Source of the DNA: Janthinobacterium sp. GW458P
GTDB lineage: Bacteria; Pseudomonadota; Gammaproteobacteria; Burkholderiales; Burkholderiaceae_D
DNA length: 64,000 bases
NCBI RefSeq assembly: GCF_002127585.1
Contig: NZ_NEGZ01000005.1
Span: forward strand, 67,162-131,161
Reading direction: 5' to 3'
The position numbers were made by a program, and so were the translations under genes. The notes beneath the pieces are model-generated. The model saw nothing but the letters and a program-made list of their open reading frames with translations, did no database searches and had not been told where the DNA came from. The stretch's first letter is position 1; each line of letters starts with the position of its first letter. This document shows positions 23,066-27,991 of this stretch, piece by piece.

Positions 23066-24607
23066 ATGGAGCAGGGTTTGCGCGAGAAAGTAGGACAGCT
23101 ATTCATGGTGGGCTTCGACGCCCTGCAGGCGGACGAGCATATCAAGACCTTGATACGCAACAAGAAGGTGGGCGGCGTGATTTTGTTCCGCCGCAATGTG
23201 CACACGCCCGCGCAAGTGTCGGCCCTGTGCCGCGAGCTGCAGGAAATCAACGCGGAAGTGTCCGACATCCCGCTGCTCATCTCCATCGACCAGGAAGGCG
23301 GCATGGTCATGCGCATCGAGCAGGGCGTCACGCCGATACCCGCCGCGATGGCCTTCCAGGCGGCCGGCTCCGTGGAAGACTGCGAACGCATGAACCAGAT
23401 CAGCGGCGATGAAATGCGCCAAGTGGGCATCAATATGCTGCTCGCCCCCGTGCTGGACGTGAACAACAACCGCAGCAACCCCGTCATCGGCGTGCGCGCG
23501 TATGGCGAGGACGCCGCCACCGTCATCGACTACGGCATGGCGGCCATGCGCGGCCAGCGCGCCAGCGGCCTGGCCGTCACCGCCAAGCACTTCCCCGGCC
23601 ACGGCGACACGGCCATCGACACGCATTACGCCATGGCGCTGGTCCCGCACGACAAGGAACGCCTGCGCGCGGTGGAACTGGCGCCCTTCCGCGCGGCCAT
23701 TGCCGGCGGCGTGGACGCCATCATGACGGCGCACGTGGTCTTCCCCGCCTTCGAGGCCGACACCAGCGTGCCGGCGACGCTGTCGAAAGGCGTGCTGACG
23801 GACCTGCTGCGCGGCGAAATGCAATACAAGGGCGTGGTCATCACCGACTGCCTGGAAATGGCCGCCATCGCCGACGGCATCGGCATCGCCCAGGGCGCCA
23901 TCGCCACCTTGCAGGCGGGCGCCGACATCGTCCTCATCTCGCACCGCGAAGCGCAGCAGACGGCCGCCATCGACGCCGTCCTTGCCGCCGTGGAACGGGG
24001 CGACATTGCCATGGCGCGCATCGACGCCGCTTGCGCCCGCGTGGCTGAACTCAAGCGCAACCGCGCCGTGCGCGACTGGCGCGAACGTCCTGTCGTCCCG
24101 CCGGCGCTGATGCAGCCGGCCGCCATGGCTCTGTCGCAGCTGCTGCAAAAAGCGGCACTGCGCGTGCAGGGCGCATACCGCCCGCTCGACGCGGGCCTGC
24201 CCGTGACCCTGCTGACGGTGGAAGTGCGCTCGCGCAGCGAAATCGACGAAGTGGCGCTGGGCCGCAACAAGGAGGCGCGCAGCTCGATGCTGCCGGCGCT
24301 GCTCGAAGCGGGCCTGGACGTGCGCGAGTACGCCCTGTCGGCCGAGGCGCTGGACGAGGAAGTGGCCGCTGCCATTGATTTTGCACAAGGCGCGCAGCAG
24401 ATCGTGCTGCAAACGTATAACGCCATGTTCGTCGACGGCCAACGCCGCCTCGTCGAGGCCCTGCCGCACGATAAACTGTGGCTGGTGGCGGGCCGTTTGC
24501 CGTATGACCTGGATCTGGCGCCGCAGGCGCAAGGCCGCCTGGCCGCCTTCGGCTGCCGCCCCGCCGCGCTCGTGCCAGTGGTGGAAAAACTGGCCGGCCA
24601 GGCGTAA
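23066..24607 (+). CDS. nagZ: Beta-N-acetylglucosaminidase NagZ, glycoside hydrolase family 3
   Basis: Removes GlcNAc from anhydro-muropeptides or N-acetyl-beta-glucosides. The catalytic TIM barrel (about 1-340) shows KHFPGHGDT (174-182), the Asp-His dyad D185-H187 (IDTH) characteristic of NagZ enzymes, and the nucleophile D261 in VVITDCLEM. At 513 aa it is much longer than the typical cytosolic proteobacterial NagZ (about 340 aa): a second alpha/beta domain covers about 350-513, as in two-domain Gram-positive enzymes. No signal peptide, so cytosolic. A GGAGGAG ribosome site precedes ATG 23066. Its product feeds the AmgK-MurU pathway encoded at 5.7-7.6 kb. Confidence 0.88.
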   Translation: MEQGLREKVGQLFMVGFDALQADEHIKTLIRNKKVGGVILFRRNVHTPAQVSALCRELQEINAEVSDIPLLISIDQEGGMVMRIEQGVTPIPAAMAFQAAGSVEDCERMNQISGDEMRQVGINMLLAPVLDVNNNRSNPVIGVRAYGEDAATVIDYGMAAMRGQRASGLAVTAKHFPGHGDTAIDTHYAMALVPHDKERLRAVELAPFRAAIAGGVDAIMTAHVVFPAFEADTSVPATLSKGVLTDLLRGEMQYKGVVITDCLEMAAIADGIGIAQGAIATLQAGADIVLISHREAQQTAAIDAVLAAVERGDIAMARIDAACARVAELKRNRAVRDWRERPVVPPALMQPAAMALSQLLQKAALRVQGAYRPLDAGLPVTLLTVEVRSRSEIDEVALGRNKEARSSMLPALLEAGLDVREYALSAEALDEEVAAAIDFAQGAQQIVLQTYNAMFVDGQRRLVEALPHDKLWLVAGRLPYDLDLAPQAQGRLAAFGCRPAALVPVVEKLAGQA

Positions 24608-24622
24608 GCGCAGTATCGGCGT

Positions 24623-24650
24623 AAAAAAACCCGCAGTCGCGGGTTTTTTT
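24623..24650. terminator. Bidirectional terminator between nagZ and a small membrane gene
   Basis: AAAAAAACCCGC (24623-24634), loop AGTC, GCGGGTTTTTTT (24639-24650). Symmetric A and T tracts let it act on both strands: after nagZ (plus) and after the 56-aa gene (minus), whose stop is 5 nt away. Confidence 0.92.
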
Positions 24651-24654
24651 ACGT

Positions 24655-24825
24655 TCAGGGCCGCTGAACTGGTGACACGGGCGGCAGGGCCGCTACCGCC
24701 AGCAAGGCGAATGGCCCGAGGAACAGGCCGATGCCGAACCAGAGTCCGCCGTGTCGGCCGCGCCGGCTGGCCAGCAGCCAGGTGGCGACGGCAAACAAAA
24801 ACATGAAGATCAACAGTATCGCCAT
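24655..24825 (-). CDS. Small two-helix membrane protein (56 aa), unknown
   Basis: From ATG 24825 the product has 56 aa with two hydrophobic helices (ILLIFMFLFAVATWLLA and LWFGIGLFLGPFALLAVAAL) separated by a basic turn (SRRGRHGG), and a short Pro-rich tail. An AAGGAG ribosome site 6 nt upstream supports both the gene and this start; the open frame continues upstream without such a site. It sits 64 nt after the end of the feo operon on the same strand, so it may be read through from feo. No family recognised. Confidence 0.65.
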   Translation of the reverse strand: MAILLIFMFLFAVATWLLASRRGRHGGLWFGIGLFLGPFALLAVAALPPVSPVQRP

Positions 24826-24889
24826 TGCCACTCCTTGCCATGCGGAAAGCCCAGTGTAGCCCACGGGCGCGCCCATGACCAGATGTACA

Positions 24890-25171
24890 TCAATCCTGGC
24901 GCTGCACCTGCATCAGGATCACGCGCTTGCTGCTGCCGTCGGCCGGCGGCGTGGCGGACGGCGGCGGCGGGCTGTCGCAGGAGCCGCAGGAACCGCAGCC
25001 GCTGCCGCAGCCCGGCGCCACCCTGAAGAAGGTCGACATCTTCGCTTCATCGAGGCCGCAGCGCACCAGGCCGCGCACGATGGCGCGGCGCACGCCGGCC
25101 GGCAGGTATTTGGTCGAAAAATGCAGCAGCGCGGCTGCGACGATCAGGGCGACGATCAGGGTTTGCCACAT
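24890..25171 (-). CDS. Cys-rich single-pass membrane protein of the feo operon
   Basis: A 93 aa protein with one N-terminal helix (TLIVALIVAAALLHF), a basic amphipathic middle (RRAIVRGLVRCGLDEAKM) and a cytosolic-type Cys cluster C-x3-C-x2-C-x2-C (GCGSGCGSCGSC), followed by a Pro-rich tail. It starts 9 nt after feoB, whose TAG stop is part of the TAGGAG ribosome site. Position and cysteine pattern suggest a FeoB-associated accessory protein, in the place where enterobacteria have FeoC; it is unlike FeoC in sequence. Iron or Fe-S binding is inference. Confidence 0.72.
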   Translation of the reverse strand: MWQTLIVALIVAAALLHFSTKYLPAGVRRAIVRGLVRCGLDEAKMSTFFRVAPGCGSGCGSCGSCDSPPPPSATPPADGSSKRVILMQVQRQD

Positions 25172-25180
25172 GGTGTGCTC

Positions 25181-27082
25181 CTAGGCGCCGAACAGCAGGG
25201 CGACGCGGTACGTGATGAACGAGGCGGCATAGGCCAGCGCGAACATATAGCCGGCCATCAGCAGCGGATAGCGCCAGCCGCCCGTCTCGCGCTTGACGAC
25301 GGAGAGGGTCGACAGGCACTGCGGCGCGAACACATACCAGGCCAGCAGGGACAGCGCGGTGGCCATCGACCACGAATGGGCGATCAGCGGTTCCAGCGTG
25401 GAGGCCAGCGCATCGCCCGTCTGCGACAGCGCATACACGGTGCCCAGCGCGCCGACGGCCACTTCGCGCGCCGCCATGCCCGGCACCAGCGCGATGCAGA
25501 TCTGCCAGTTGAAACCGATGGGCGCGAAGATCACTTCCAGGCCGCGGCCCAGGATGCCGGCCAGGCTGTAGTAGATGGGCGGATGGATGGCATTGTCCGG
25601 CGCGCCGGGGAAGGTGCTGAGGAACCACAGGATGATCATCAGGCTCAGGATGATGGTGCCGACGCGCGTGAGGAAGATCTTCGCGCGCTCCCACAGGCTG
25701 ACGGCCAGGTTGCGCAAGTGCGGCCAGTGGTAGGCCGGCAGTTCCAGCAGCAGCGGCTGGTTGCCGCGCACGCCCATGCCGCGCTTCATGACCCAGGCCA
25801 CGGCCATGGCCGAGATGATGCCGGCGAAGTACAGGATGAACAGCACCAGGCCTTGCAGGCTCAGGTAGCCCCACACCTGGCGCTGGGGGATGAAGGCGGC
25901 GATGATCAGCGCATACACGGGCAGGCGCGCCGAGCATGTCATCAGCGGCGCGATCATGATGGTCACCAGGCGGTCGCGCGGGTTCTGGATGGTGCGCGCC
26001 GCCATCACGCCGGGAATGGCGCAGGCAAAGCTCGACAGCAGCGGGATGAAGGCGCGGCCCGACAGGCCCACGCCGCCCATCAGGCGGTCCAGCAAAAAGG
26101 CCGCGCGCGGCAGGTAGCCGCAGTCTTCCAGGCTCAGGATGAAGAAGAACAGGATCAGGATTTGCGGCAGGAAGACCAGCACGCTGCCGACGCCGCCGAT
26201 GATGCCTTCCACCAGCAGGCTTTTCAGGTGGCCGTCGGGCATGTTCGCCGTCAGCACGGCGCCCAGGTGGCCCACGCCATCGGTGATCATTTCCATCGGC
26301 GTGGCGGCCCAGGCAAACACGGCCTGGAAGATCAGGAACATCAGCACGGCCAGGATGATCGGGCCGAAGACGGGGTGCAGCACCACGTCGTCGATCTTTT
26401 CCGTCAGGTTGCCCGTGTCGCCGGCGTCATTGCTGACGGCAGCGAGAATGCGGCGCACTTCGCGCTGGGTTTCTTCGACGCTGACGGCGTCGATGGCCGC
26501 CAGCGGTTTCGCCTCCACGGCCGGCAACGGCAGCATGGCGTCGATAGCATTGAGCAGGGCTTTTTCGCCATCGTGCTGCACCGCGACGGTTTCCACCACG
26601 GGCATGCCCAGTTCCTGCGACAGCCGGGCCGTGTCGATGACCATGCCGCGCTTGCGCGCCACGTCCGTCATGTTCAGCGCCAGCAGCATGGGCAAGCCCA
26701 GGCGCCTGACTTCCAGCACCAGGCGCAGGTTCAGGCGCAAATTGGTGGCGTCGACGACGCAGATGATGGCGTCCGGACGCGGATCGCCGCGGCGCAGGCC
26801 GCCCACGACGTCGCGCGTGATGGCTTCATCGGGCGTGGTGGCCGACAGACTGTAGGCGCCCGGCAGGTCGAGCAGGCGCACGGGCTTGCCGGCGGGCGAG
26901 GTGAAATGGCCTTCCTTGCGCTCGATGGTCACGCCCGCGTAGTTCGCCACTTTCTGGCGCGCGCCCGTCAAACGGTTGAACAGGGCCGTCTTGCCGCAGT
27001 TCGGATTGCCCAGCAAGGCGATTTGTGGCTGGTGCGGCGGCTTGTGCGCGCCCGCTTCCACGATAGTTTCTACGGCACCCAT
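25181..27082 (-). CDS. feoB: Ferrous iron transporter FeoB
   Basis: Inner-membrane Fe2+ transporter with an N-terminal GTPase domain. G motifs: G1 GNPNCGKTALFN, G3 DLPGAYSL, G4 LNMTD. The membrane core contains the two gate regions (VLVFLPQILILFFFILSLEDCGYLPRAAFLLDR and the later NLAVSLWERAKIFLTRVGTIIL) and the FSSFACAIPG-like segment LLSSFACAIPGVMAAR. At 633 aa it is shorter than the 773-aa E. coli protein, as is usual for the beta-type FeoB of betaproteobacteria. feoA ends 2 nt upstream. Confidence 0.96.
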   Translation of the reverse strand: MGAVETIVEAGAHKPPHQPQIALLGNPNCGKTALFNRLTGARQKVANYAGVTIERKEGHFTSPAGKPVRLLDLPGAYSLSATTPDEAITRDVVGGLRRGDPRPDAIICVVDATNLRLNLRLVLEVRRLGLPMLLALNMTDVARKRGMVIDTARLSQELGMPVVETVAVQHDGEKALLNAIDAMLPLPAVEAKPLAAIDAVSVEETQREVRRILAAVSNDAGDTGNLTEKIDDVVLHPVFGPIILAVLMFLIFQAVFAWAATPMEMITDGVGHLGAVLTANMPDGHLKSLLVEGIIGGVGSVLVFLPQILILFFFILSLEDCGYLPRAAFLLDRLMGGVGLSGRAFIPLLSSFACAIPGVMAARTIQNPRDRLVTIMIAPLMTCSARLPVYALIIAAFIPQRQVWGYLSLQGLVLFILYFAGIISAMAVAWVMKRGMGVRGNQPLLLELPAYHWPHLRNLAVSLWERAKIFLTRVGTIILSLMIILWFLSTFPGAPDNAIHPPIYYSLAGILGRGLEVIFAPIGFNWQICIALVPGMAAREVAVGALGTVYALSQTGDALASTLEPLIAHSWSMATALSLLAWYVFAPQCLSTLSVVKRETGGWRYPLLMAGYMFALAYAASFITYRVALLFGA

Positions 27083-27084
27083 AA

Positions 27085-27369
27085 TTATTCCGGTTGAATC
27101 AGCGGTTGAATCGTAATCAGTGCCGCTTCGAAGCGGCGCAGTGCGAACGTGGCGTTACCGACCTTGATGGCCAGCGGATCGCCGCCGGGAAGGCCGCGCT
27201 TGAGCATGCGGATTCGTTCGCCGGGAACGAATCCCAGCTCCATCAGGCGCCGGGCAAGGTCGACGCCGTCTTCCATCTGTCCGGCCGCATGGGGGGTGAT
27301 ATGCAACACCGTGCCGCTCTGGCCGACTGCCAGCGCATCGAGCGTCATCAGGGGTGGAACTAGAGTCAT
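27085..27369 (-). CDS. feoA: Ferrous iron transport protein FeoA
   Basis: A 94 aa SH3-like cytosolic protein needed for FeoB function. The FeoA fold signature is visible in the DLARRLMELGFVPGERIRMLKRGLPGGDPLAIKVGNATFALRR region. The chosen start is ATG 27369 (MTLVPPLMTL); an in-frame TTG two codons upstream is less likely. First gene of feoA-feoB-Cys-rich protein. A Fur-box-like site lies at 27534-27552. Confidence 0.93.
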   Translation of the reverse strand: MTLVPPLMTLDALAVGQSGTVLHITPHAAGQMEDGVDLARRLMELGFVPGERIRMLKRGLPGGDPLAIKVGNATFALRRFEAALITIQPLIQPE

Positions 27370-27533
27370 GAGCAAATTCCGTTCAAATTAAGAACACCGG
27401 GGACAGCCTGCCGCGCATGGCGCATGCCCTGGGTGTTGTGAGGTAAAACGCAACTGTTGCGCATTACCGACAAGCGGCCTTTCGATCTATCCGGACGGCG
27501 ACCGTCCGAGACAATACCAGCATTATAAACATG

Positions 27534-27672: not shown

Positions 27673-27700
27673 TTGCGCGACAATGAAACGTAATGATAAT
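27673..27700 (+). promoter_or_regulatory. Predicted bfd-tonB promoter
   Basis: TTGCGC (27673-27678), a 16-bp spacer and GATAAT (27695-27700). The -10 box lies inside the Fur box, so iron-loaded Fur would block the polymerase. Confidence 0.55.
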
Positions 27701-27712
27701 GATTCTCATTAA
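27691..27712 (+). promoter_or_regulatory. Fur box upstream of bfd-tonB
   Basis: TAATGATAATGATTCTCATT is very close to the 19-bp Fur consensus (GATAATGATAATCATTATC) with the expected dyad. It lies 64 nt before the bfd start and overlaps the predicted -10 box. Confidence 0.85.
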
Positions 27713-27775
27713 AACACTAGCAACAATGCTTTCAAGCACTAGTGTCTGTTCATCCTCCAGCCAGAAGGTGTATCA

Positions 27776-27991
27776 ATGATTGTATGTGTCTGCAACAACA
27801 TATCTGATCGTGAAATCCGTCAAGCCGTCGATCTTGGCCTGTCCAGCATGGCCGAACTGCGCCGCGACCTGGGCGTGGCCACCTGCTGCGGCAAATGCCA
27901 CACCTGCGCGCGGGAAGTGCTGAACGATCACCTGAACGCCACCGCGGTGCTGCAAGAAACCGTATTGATGCGAGCTGTACTGACAAACTAA
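27776..27991 (+). CDS. bfd: Bacterioferritin-associated ferredoxin Bfd
   Basis: A 71 aa [2Fe-2S] protein that delivers electrons to bacterioferritin to release stored iron. Cluster ligands are C4 and C6 (VCVCNN) and C38 and C41 (CCGKCHTC). The fold matches BFD/NirB small domains. Controlled by a strong Fur box and followed 16 nt later by tonB; its client bacterioferritin is encoded 2 kb downstream. Expression in low iron fits its role in mobilising iron. Confidence 0.93.
   Translation: MIVCVCNNISDREIRQAVDLGLSSMAELRRDLGVATCCGKCHTCAREVLNDHLNATAVLQETVLMRAVLTN

Follow-up and report, generated by a model that had tools for sequence, protein, structure and literature searches.

The Feo system is called the most widespread bacterial importer of Fe2+, and what its small third components do is described as unclear (PMC8749426). 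FeoB-associated Cys-rich proteins of the PF12669 family are reported mainly from Firmicutes and Bacteroidetes, and the FeoB-associated protein can also take the form of a C-terminal domain of FeoB itself (PMC8749426); ten fusions of FeoAB with such a protein are on record (PMC8980893). For E. coli FeoB it has been proposed that Fe(II) passes from the membrane helices to a cytosolic tail that bears cysteines (PMC10647171), and the FeoB-associated Cys-rich protein of Porphyromonas gingivalis is 1.8-fold upregulated in low iron (PMC10434189). Betaproteobacterial peptides of the kind treated here were already mentioned in 2022 in PMC8749426, which leaves it open whether peptides associated with FeoB, elements like FeoC and the Cys-rich tails of FeoB are counterparts of one another. 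FeoB-associated Cys-rich proteins are known as such. A search of largely open-access literature found no paper that uses the name DUF6587 and no functional test of a FeoB-associated Cys-rich protein; nor did it find in print the identification of these proteins as DUF6587, the union of this family with PF12669, inheritance with the FeoB lineage or the partner-less FeoB clade described below.

The window analysed here is a stretch of 64,000 nucleotides from Janthinobacterium sp. GW458P (contig NZ_NEGZ01000005.1) and includes a feo locus (Table 1). Directly 3' of feoB, on the minus strand, lies an ORF of 93 codons with an ATG start, the product of which is hereafter referred to as the partner. 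The initial annotation credited this protein with one membrane helix and a C-x3-C-x2-C-x2-C cluster, and both are present: there is one hydrophobic stretch near the N terminus and the cluster is formed by cysteines 55, 59, 62 and 65, with C38 as an extra cysteine. It was also right about the translational arrangement. In sequence order the feoB stop codon TAG (25183-25181) and the three bases after it form TAGGAG, followed by CACACC and, hence 6 nt after TAGGAG, by the ATG; the stop codon of feoB thus falls inside the sequence that serves the partner gene as ribosome site. The stop lies inside or abuts GGAG in 32 of the 39 orthologues in the genus, and the remaining 7 start 1 nt past the stop.

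Table 1. Features of the feo locus, numbered from the first nucleotide of the window
Feature	Position	Strand	Basis
73-aa hydrophobic ORF, starts 13 nt past the end of the partner gene	24655-24876	-	no Pfam match over cut-off
DUF6587-type protein of 93 aa with one helix and a Cys cluster (proposed Feo partner subunit)	24890..25171	-	PF20228, 30.1 bits
C-terminal motif RVILMQVQR, aa 83-91, common to many relatives	24899..24925	-	tail pattern count
Cluster C-x3-C-x2-C-x2-C, aa 55-65	24977..25009	-	four Cys in 39/39 genus sequences
Basic helix, aa 25-37, follows the membrane helix	25061..25099	-	charge counts, AlphaFold2 model
Membrane helix, aa 2-22, predicted N-out/C-in	25106..25168	-	charge counts, AlphaFold2 model
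TAGGAG, feoB stop codon within the ribosome site of the partner gene	25178..25183	-	same in 32/39 genus loci
feoB, 633 aa; lacks the final helix seen in E. coli-type FeoB	25181..27082	-	Pfam match, end comparison
feoA, start codon uncertain, listed from TTG	27085..27375	-	Pfam match
Two overlapping Fur-box-like sites, 15/19 and 16/19	27689..27713	.	between feoA and divergent bfd-like gene
bfd-like [2Fe-2S] ferredoxin gene (Fer2_BFD)	27776-27991	+	Pfam match; divergent from feoA

The gene is under purifying selection. The variable sites of codons 2-66 are distributed over codon positions 1, 2 and 3 in numbers of 18, 9 and 48 (32 of the 39 distinct genus sequences), as expected of a translated gene, and the pooled dN/dS of the 39 distinct sequences is 0.44. 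Across the same 39 sequences none of the four cluster cysteines varies and the length ranges from 87 to 101 aa; constraint as measured by pN/pS is strongest in the cluster (0.32), followed by the helix (0.37), and weakest in the tail (0.65). Partners were recognised by a rule for a one-helix Cys protein behind feoB that was written after looking at examples; the loci L068, L261 and L301 fail it and are counted by eye. As a chance control the rule was applied, within this 176-kb contig, to what follows the 3' ends of long open stretches (432 ends); 5 of the downstream ORFs pass, the partner included, and among these five the partner alone has an ATG start. The Janthinobacterium ORF is real and looks translated, and selection and codon pattern together constitute evidence, short of proof, for the translation of one such gene.

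The two Fur-box-like sites are the best two of the window when scored against the Fur-box consensus. The bfd-like gene is divergent across these sites, and iron import and an iron-release partner may therefore share control. On the other side of the operon the 73-aa hydrophobic ORF may also belong to it. A strong hairpin at 24620-24653, flanked by runs of A and T and resembling a bidirectional terminator when read by eye, is located between the feo side and a plus-strand gene that ends at 24607.

An AlphaFold2 model of the partner contains the helix of aa 2-22, with a mean pLDDT of 59.5 that falls below 50 in the Cys region, and the search for a related solved structure found none (best E 0.96). 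The number of K and R residues averages 0.04 before the helix and 4.09 after it; 69 of 70 partners are more basic after the helix and one is equal. By the positive-inside rule the more basic C-terminal side predicts a cytosolic cluster, an orientation that would suit the withdrawal of iron from FeoB on the cytosolic side at least as well as its delivery to FeoB. The number of cysteines (3 to 6) and their spacing vary among partners. A C-terminal end like RVIxLHVxR occurs in 57 of 98 tails against 6.7 expected from shuffles, the pattern having been written post hoc, and in the DUF6587-type partners this end is perhaps a docking peptide.

The partner is a member of DUF6587 (PF20228), which it matches over aa 1-68 with 30.1 bits at a cut-off of 27 (30 bits in the genome search); it shows no structural difference from this family, to which no function is assigned. 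No NCBIfam model matches the partner, nor does PF12669 at E up to 1. FeoC (PF09012) is absent from its Pfam matches at E up to 1; the control, E. coli FeoC, does match this model. The initial annotation had placed a Cys-rich protein unlike FeoC in the FeoC position. The position is confirmed, as this is a small Cys-cluster gene directly 3' of feoB, and so is the unlikeness to FeoC; the description was incomplete in that the protein belongs to DUF6587 and is kin to the published FeoB-associated Cys-rich proteins. That the partner is itself a FeoC was ruled out by the lack of a FeoC profile match. FeoC profiles match 16 of 300 Burkholderiales genomes. The Janthinobacterium genome has a single match (G000:C113:76712-76855, L168; 22.1 bits, cut-off 21), which sits in a frame of 165 codons on a contig other than that of feoB.

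DUF6587 and PF12669 are kin, as judged by profile comparison. The profiles of DUF6587-type and PF12669-type partners match with 98% probability (E 1.8e-13) and their helix parts alone with 97%, where none of eight FeoB control segments exceeds 4.8%; furthermore, the DUF6587 model also picks up 10 of the 11 PF12669-type partners at E up to 1, the best at 1.3e-5. This kinship, together with the linker and the C-terminal end of the DUF6587 proteins, indicates that DUF6587 is the long form of one superfamily with PF12669. PF12669 is matched in 28 of the 300 Burkholderiales genomes at E up to 0.01, and the 15 matches over the cut-off comprise 11 short partners of window-type feoB, 3 proteins behind divergent feoB and one (L125) with no feoB nearby. 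In Massilia sp. TS11 the partner is of the PF12669 type, whereas those of its relatives are DUF6587-like. PF12669-type partners are also found behind a quite different FeoB lineage in one family of the order (f19: L111, L121, L124, L126), and the pairing may therefore have arisen or moved more than once.

The linkage of the partner to feoB of the window's type is strong; the initial annotation had proposed a survey of its linkage to beta-type feoB. DUF6587 is matched in 21 of 300 Burkholderiales genomes, the window's own included (19 over the cut-off), and all 21 matches lie directly behind feoB. The phylum search, with a match in 22 of 349 genomes, holds 13 further matches over the cut-off (L198-L210), 12 of which are behind feoB; the one that is not, L210, has only a short match to the C-terminal part of FeoB about 1.4 kb upstream. 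Three further matches below the cut-off (L211-L213) have no feoB nearby. feoB itself is present in 139 of the 300 Burkholderiales genomes in 141 rows, 69 of window type (at least 52% identity) and 72 divergent (32-38% identity). With the incomplete rows G109 and G159 left out, 67 window-type genes were assessed; by the rule a one-helix Cys protein comes next after 58 of them, or 59 with L068, and the spacing between feoB and partner is -4 to +20 nt in 55 of the 58. Behind divergent feoB a partner is present in 1 of the 30 examined out of 72 rows, and two more with a partner are known (G066, G110). Among named genomes 67 of 80 have the partner by rule, corresponding to 69 of 77 loci once L261 and L301 are added and three contig-edge loci are left out; these partner loci include Oxalobacteraceae, Variovorax, Acidovorax, Cupriavidus, Aquabacterium, Luteibacter and Pseudoxanthomonas. 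Within the genus, all 40 genomes carry feoB; for the 39 other than that of the window, 38 downstream regions were fetched and every one has the partner. Some genomes occur in more than one of the order, phylum and named sets.

In a FastTree phylogeny of 165 rows the 16 partner-less window-type FeoBs form a single clade with a support of 100, which amounts to one change, a value as low as this being reached in 0 of 500 shuffles. The remaining window-type FeoBs all have the partner (139/139), 12 of these rows (L198-L209) having been chosen through their DUF6587 match, and a smaller FeoB tree in which 8 of 78 rows are partner-less agrees. The partner-less rows are L041, L046, L050, L278, L279, L283, L287, L289, L295, L296, L298, L338, L340, L342, L346 and L358, from Undibacterium, Thiobacillus, Formivibrio, Hydromonas, a Ramlibacter MAG and others, and their distribution over scattered genera looks like horizontal spread. 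Since one partner-less clade runs across mixed genera, the presence of the partner follows the FeoB lineage and not the species, which is the inheritance predicted for a FeoB-specific partner. Scattered losses of the partner, expected from the mixed taxonomy of the partner-less loci, were ruled out as the trees show one clade. Both trees are FastTree phylogenies without bootstraps, and the nested place of the clade has a local support of 89 to 96, so that it may never have had a partner.

The FeoBs of the partner-less clade are marked by R117, A124, G424 and Q465 and by cysteines in the G domain. C132 is present in 88% of the clade and 0% (0/139) of the partner-bearing FeoBs, C90 in 56% versus 0% and C108 in 100% versus 66%. 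A cysteine at 132 is also found in E. coli FeoB and in one divergent FeoB, and it may therefore be an old residue that was lost in the partner-bearing FeoBs. The nearest named FeoBs to that of the window are those of Janthinobacterium (97% identity).

FeoB of the window lacks a helix. A further C-terminal helix is carried by 28 of 30 E. coli-type FeoBs and by 0 of 110 window-type ones, the partner-less ones included; it is likewise absent from divergent FeoBs (0 of 18 usable ends among the 30 examined). The last helix of E. coli-type FeoBs would run in the same sense as the helix of the partner. When compared with the E. coli-type extension, in a profile that leaves out L305 and L317 where no further helix was found, PF12669-type partners match at 68%, while eight FeoB control segments reach 7.9% at most. 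DUF6587-type partners match weakly (6.9%, controls at most 2.3%), and their helix alone at 4.6% is no closer than the best control at 4.8%. The partner may supply the absent last helix of FeoB in trans. A fusion of the partner to FeoB within the window-type clade was ruled out, as FeoB ends no more than 11 residues from the anchor in 110 of 110 cases, and the phylum search for PF12669 (4 of 219 genomes) lists no long fused frame. PDB matches to the FeoB of the window are confined to its first 212 residues, and its model has a mean pLDDT of 76.

The partner is probably an overlooked subunit with an iron-binding role at the cytosolic face of the membrane. In its full form, a Feo subunit that binds Fe2+ at the inner mouth of FeoB and assists or gates transport, this reading is the tentative best explanation. 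The invariant cluster, the purifying selection and the Fur-box-like site at the operon count for it, as do the linkage to feoB, the inheritance with the FeoB lineage, the more basic C-terminal side, the helix absent from window-type FeoBs, the proposal for the E. coli FeoB tail (PMC10647171) and the reported fusions of FeoB-associated proteins to FeoB or FeoAB (PMC8980893, PMC8749426). The variable number and spacing of the cysteines, which might suit redox or Zn roles, count against it, as do the FeoB clade that manages with no partner, the two matches L210 and L125, over the cut-off in DUF6587 and PF12669 respectively and not next to feoB, and the failure of the DUF6587-type helix to approach the E. 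coli-type extension more closely than the best control. The variable spacing would suit a sensor comparable to FeoC, in which an O2-labile Fe-S cluster or labile Fe2+ tunes the activity or stability of FeoB and no iron passes through. Such a sensor, which would fill the role of FeoC with another fold, is a serious if rather unlikely alternative: FeoC has the same place and a similar Cys richness, a FeoC-like Cys protein is seen by eye behind feoB at 24 of 30 E. coli-type loci, and the Cys pair of E. coli FeoC is reported to be required for full function (PMC8749426). The partner, however, is anchored in the membrane and has neither a winged helix nor a match to FeoC.

The absence of the last helix from all window-type FeoBs and the 68% match of PF12669-type partners to the E. 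coli-type extension would also be accounted for if the partner were purely structural, replacing this helix in trans to stabilise or assemble FeoB, with the cysteines secondary as a disulfide, a Zn site or a redundant metal site. This is less likely still, as the cluster is among the most constrained parts of the protein, the DUF6587-type partners match the extension weakly, and divergent FeoBs, which also lack the helix, are mostly without a partner too. Least credible by far is that no functional peptide is made and that the ORF behind feoB is untranslated or dispensable, even though its length varies in the genus and the translation of such ORFs is called an unanswered question in PMC8749426; the codon-position pattern, a dN/dS that is lowest in helix and cluster, the conserved ribosome site and the inheritance of the partner with FeoB all speak against it.

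On the preferred reading, an iron-binding Feo subunit, the partner would contact FeoB, bind metal, transfer iron, gate transport and be needed for uptake. It is proposed that the partner is the small subunit of a FeoC-less type of Feo system and is made by translation coupled behind FeoB. Its helix would cross the inner membrane with the N terminus outside, beside the membrane domain of FeoB and probably at the site where E. coli-type FeoBs carry their extra last helix, while the flexible basic tail would hang in the cytosol. The CxxxCxxCxxC cluster would bind Fe2+ at the inner mouth of FeoB and draw iron off the pore, thereby assisting or gating transport, and FeoB or FeoA may offer a docking site for the tail through its conserved C-terminal peptide. 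The partner-less clade has neither partner nor extra helix, and thus neither is needed by every FeoB. Set beside its partner-bearing kin this clade offers a natural contrast that makes the role of the partner directly testable. The analysis turns DUF6587 from a Pfam family of unassigned function into a candidate Feo subunit joined to the FeoB-associated family, and the evidence of selection bears on peptides whose translation had been questioned.

Among the known systems FeoC resembles the partner in being encoded by a third small gene 3' of feoB and in its Cys cluster, but E. coli FeoC is soluble and matches the FeoC and TrmB models, whereas the partner matches neither and has a membrane helix. 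The FeoB-associated Cys-rich proteins of PF12669 share with the partner the N-terminal helix, the basic stretch, the Cys cluster and the gene position 3' of feoB, and differ in two respects: in the partner a linker separates the helix from the cluster, and a C-terminal motif is present. The C-terminal end of E. coli FeoB likewise has a membrane helix and a basic stretch followed by cysteines; these, however, belong to FeoB itself, and E. coli FeoB matches neither DUF6587 nor PF12669. As a speculative extension, unlikely in its entirety, the last helix of FeoB and the Cys tail could be regarded as a detachable module: in the E. coli type the helix would be present in cis and FeoC would bring the Cys cluster, in the window type a one-helix protein would bring both in trans, and one FeoB lineage with Cys132 would have given the module up and spread across genera. 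If true, this would be a partial answer to the question of correspondence raised in PMC8749426.
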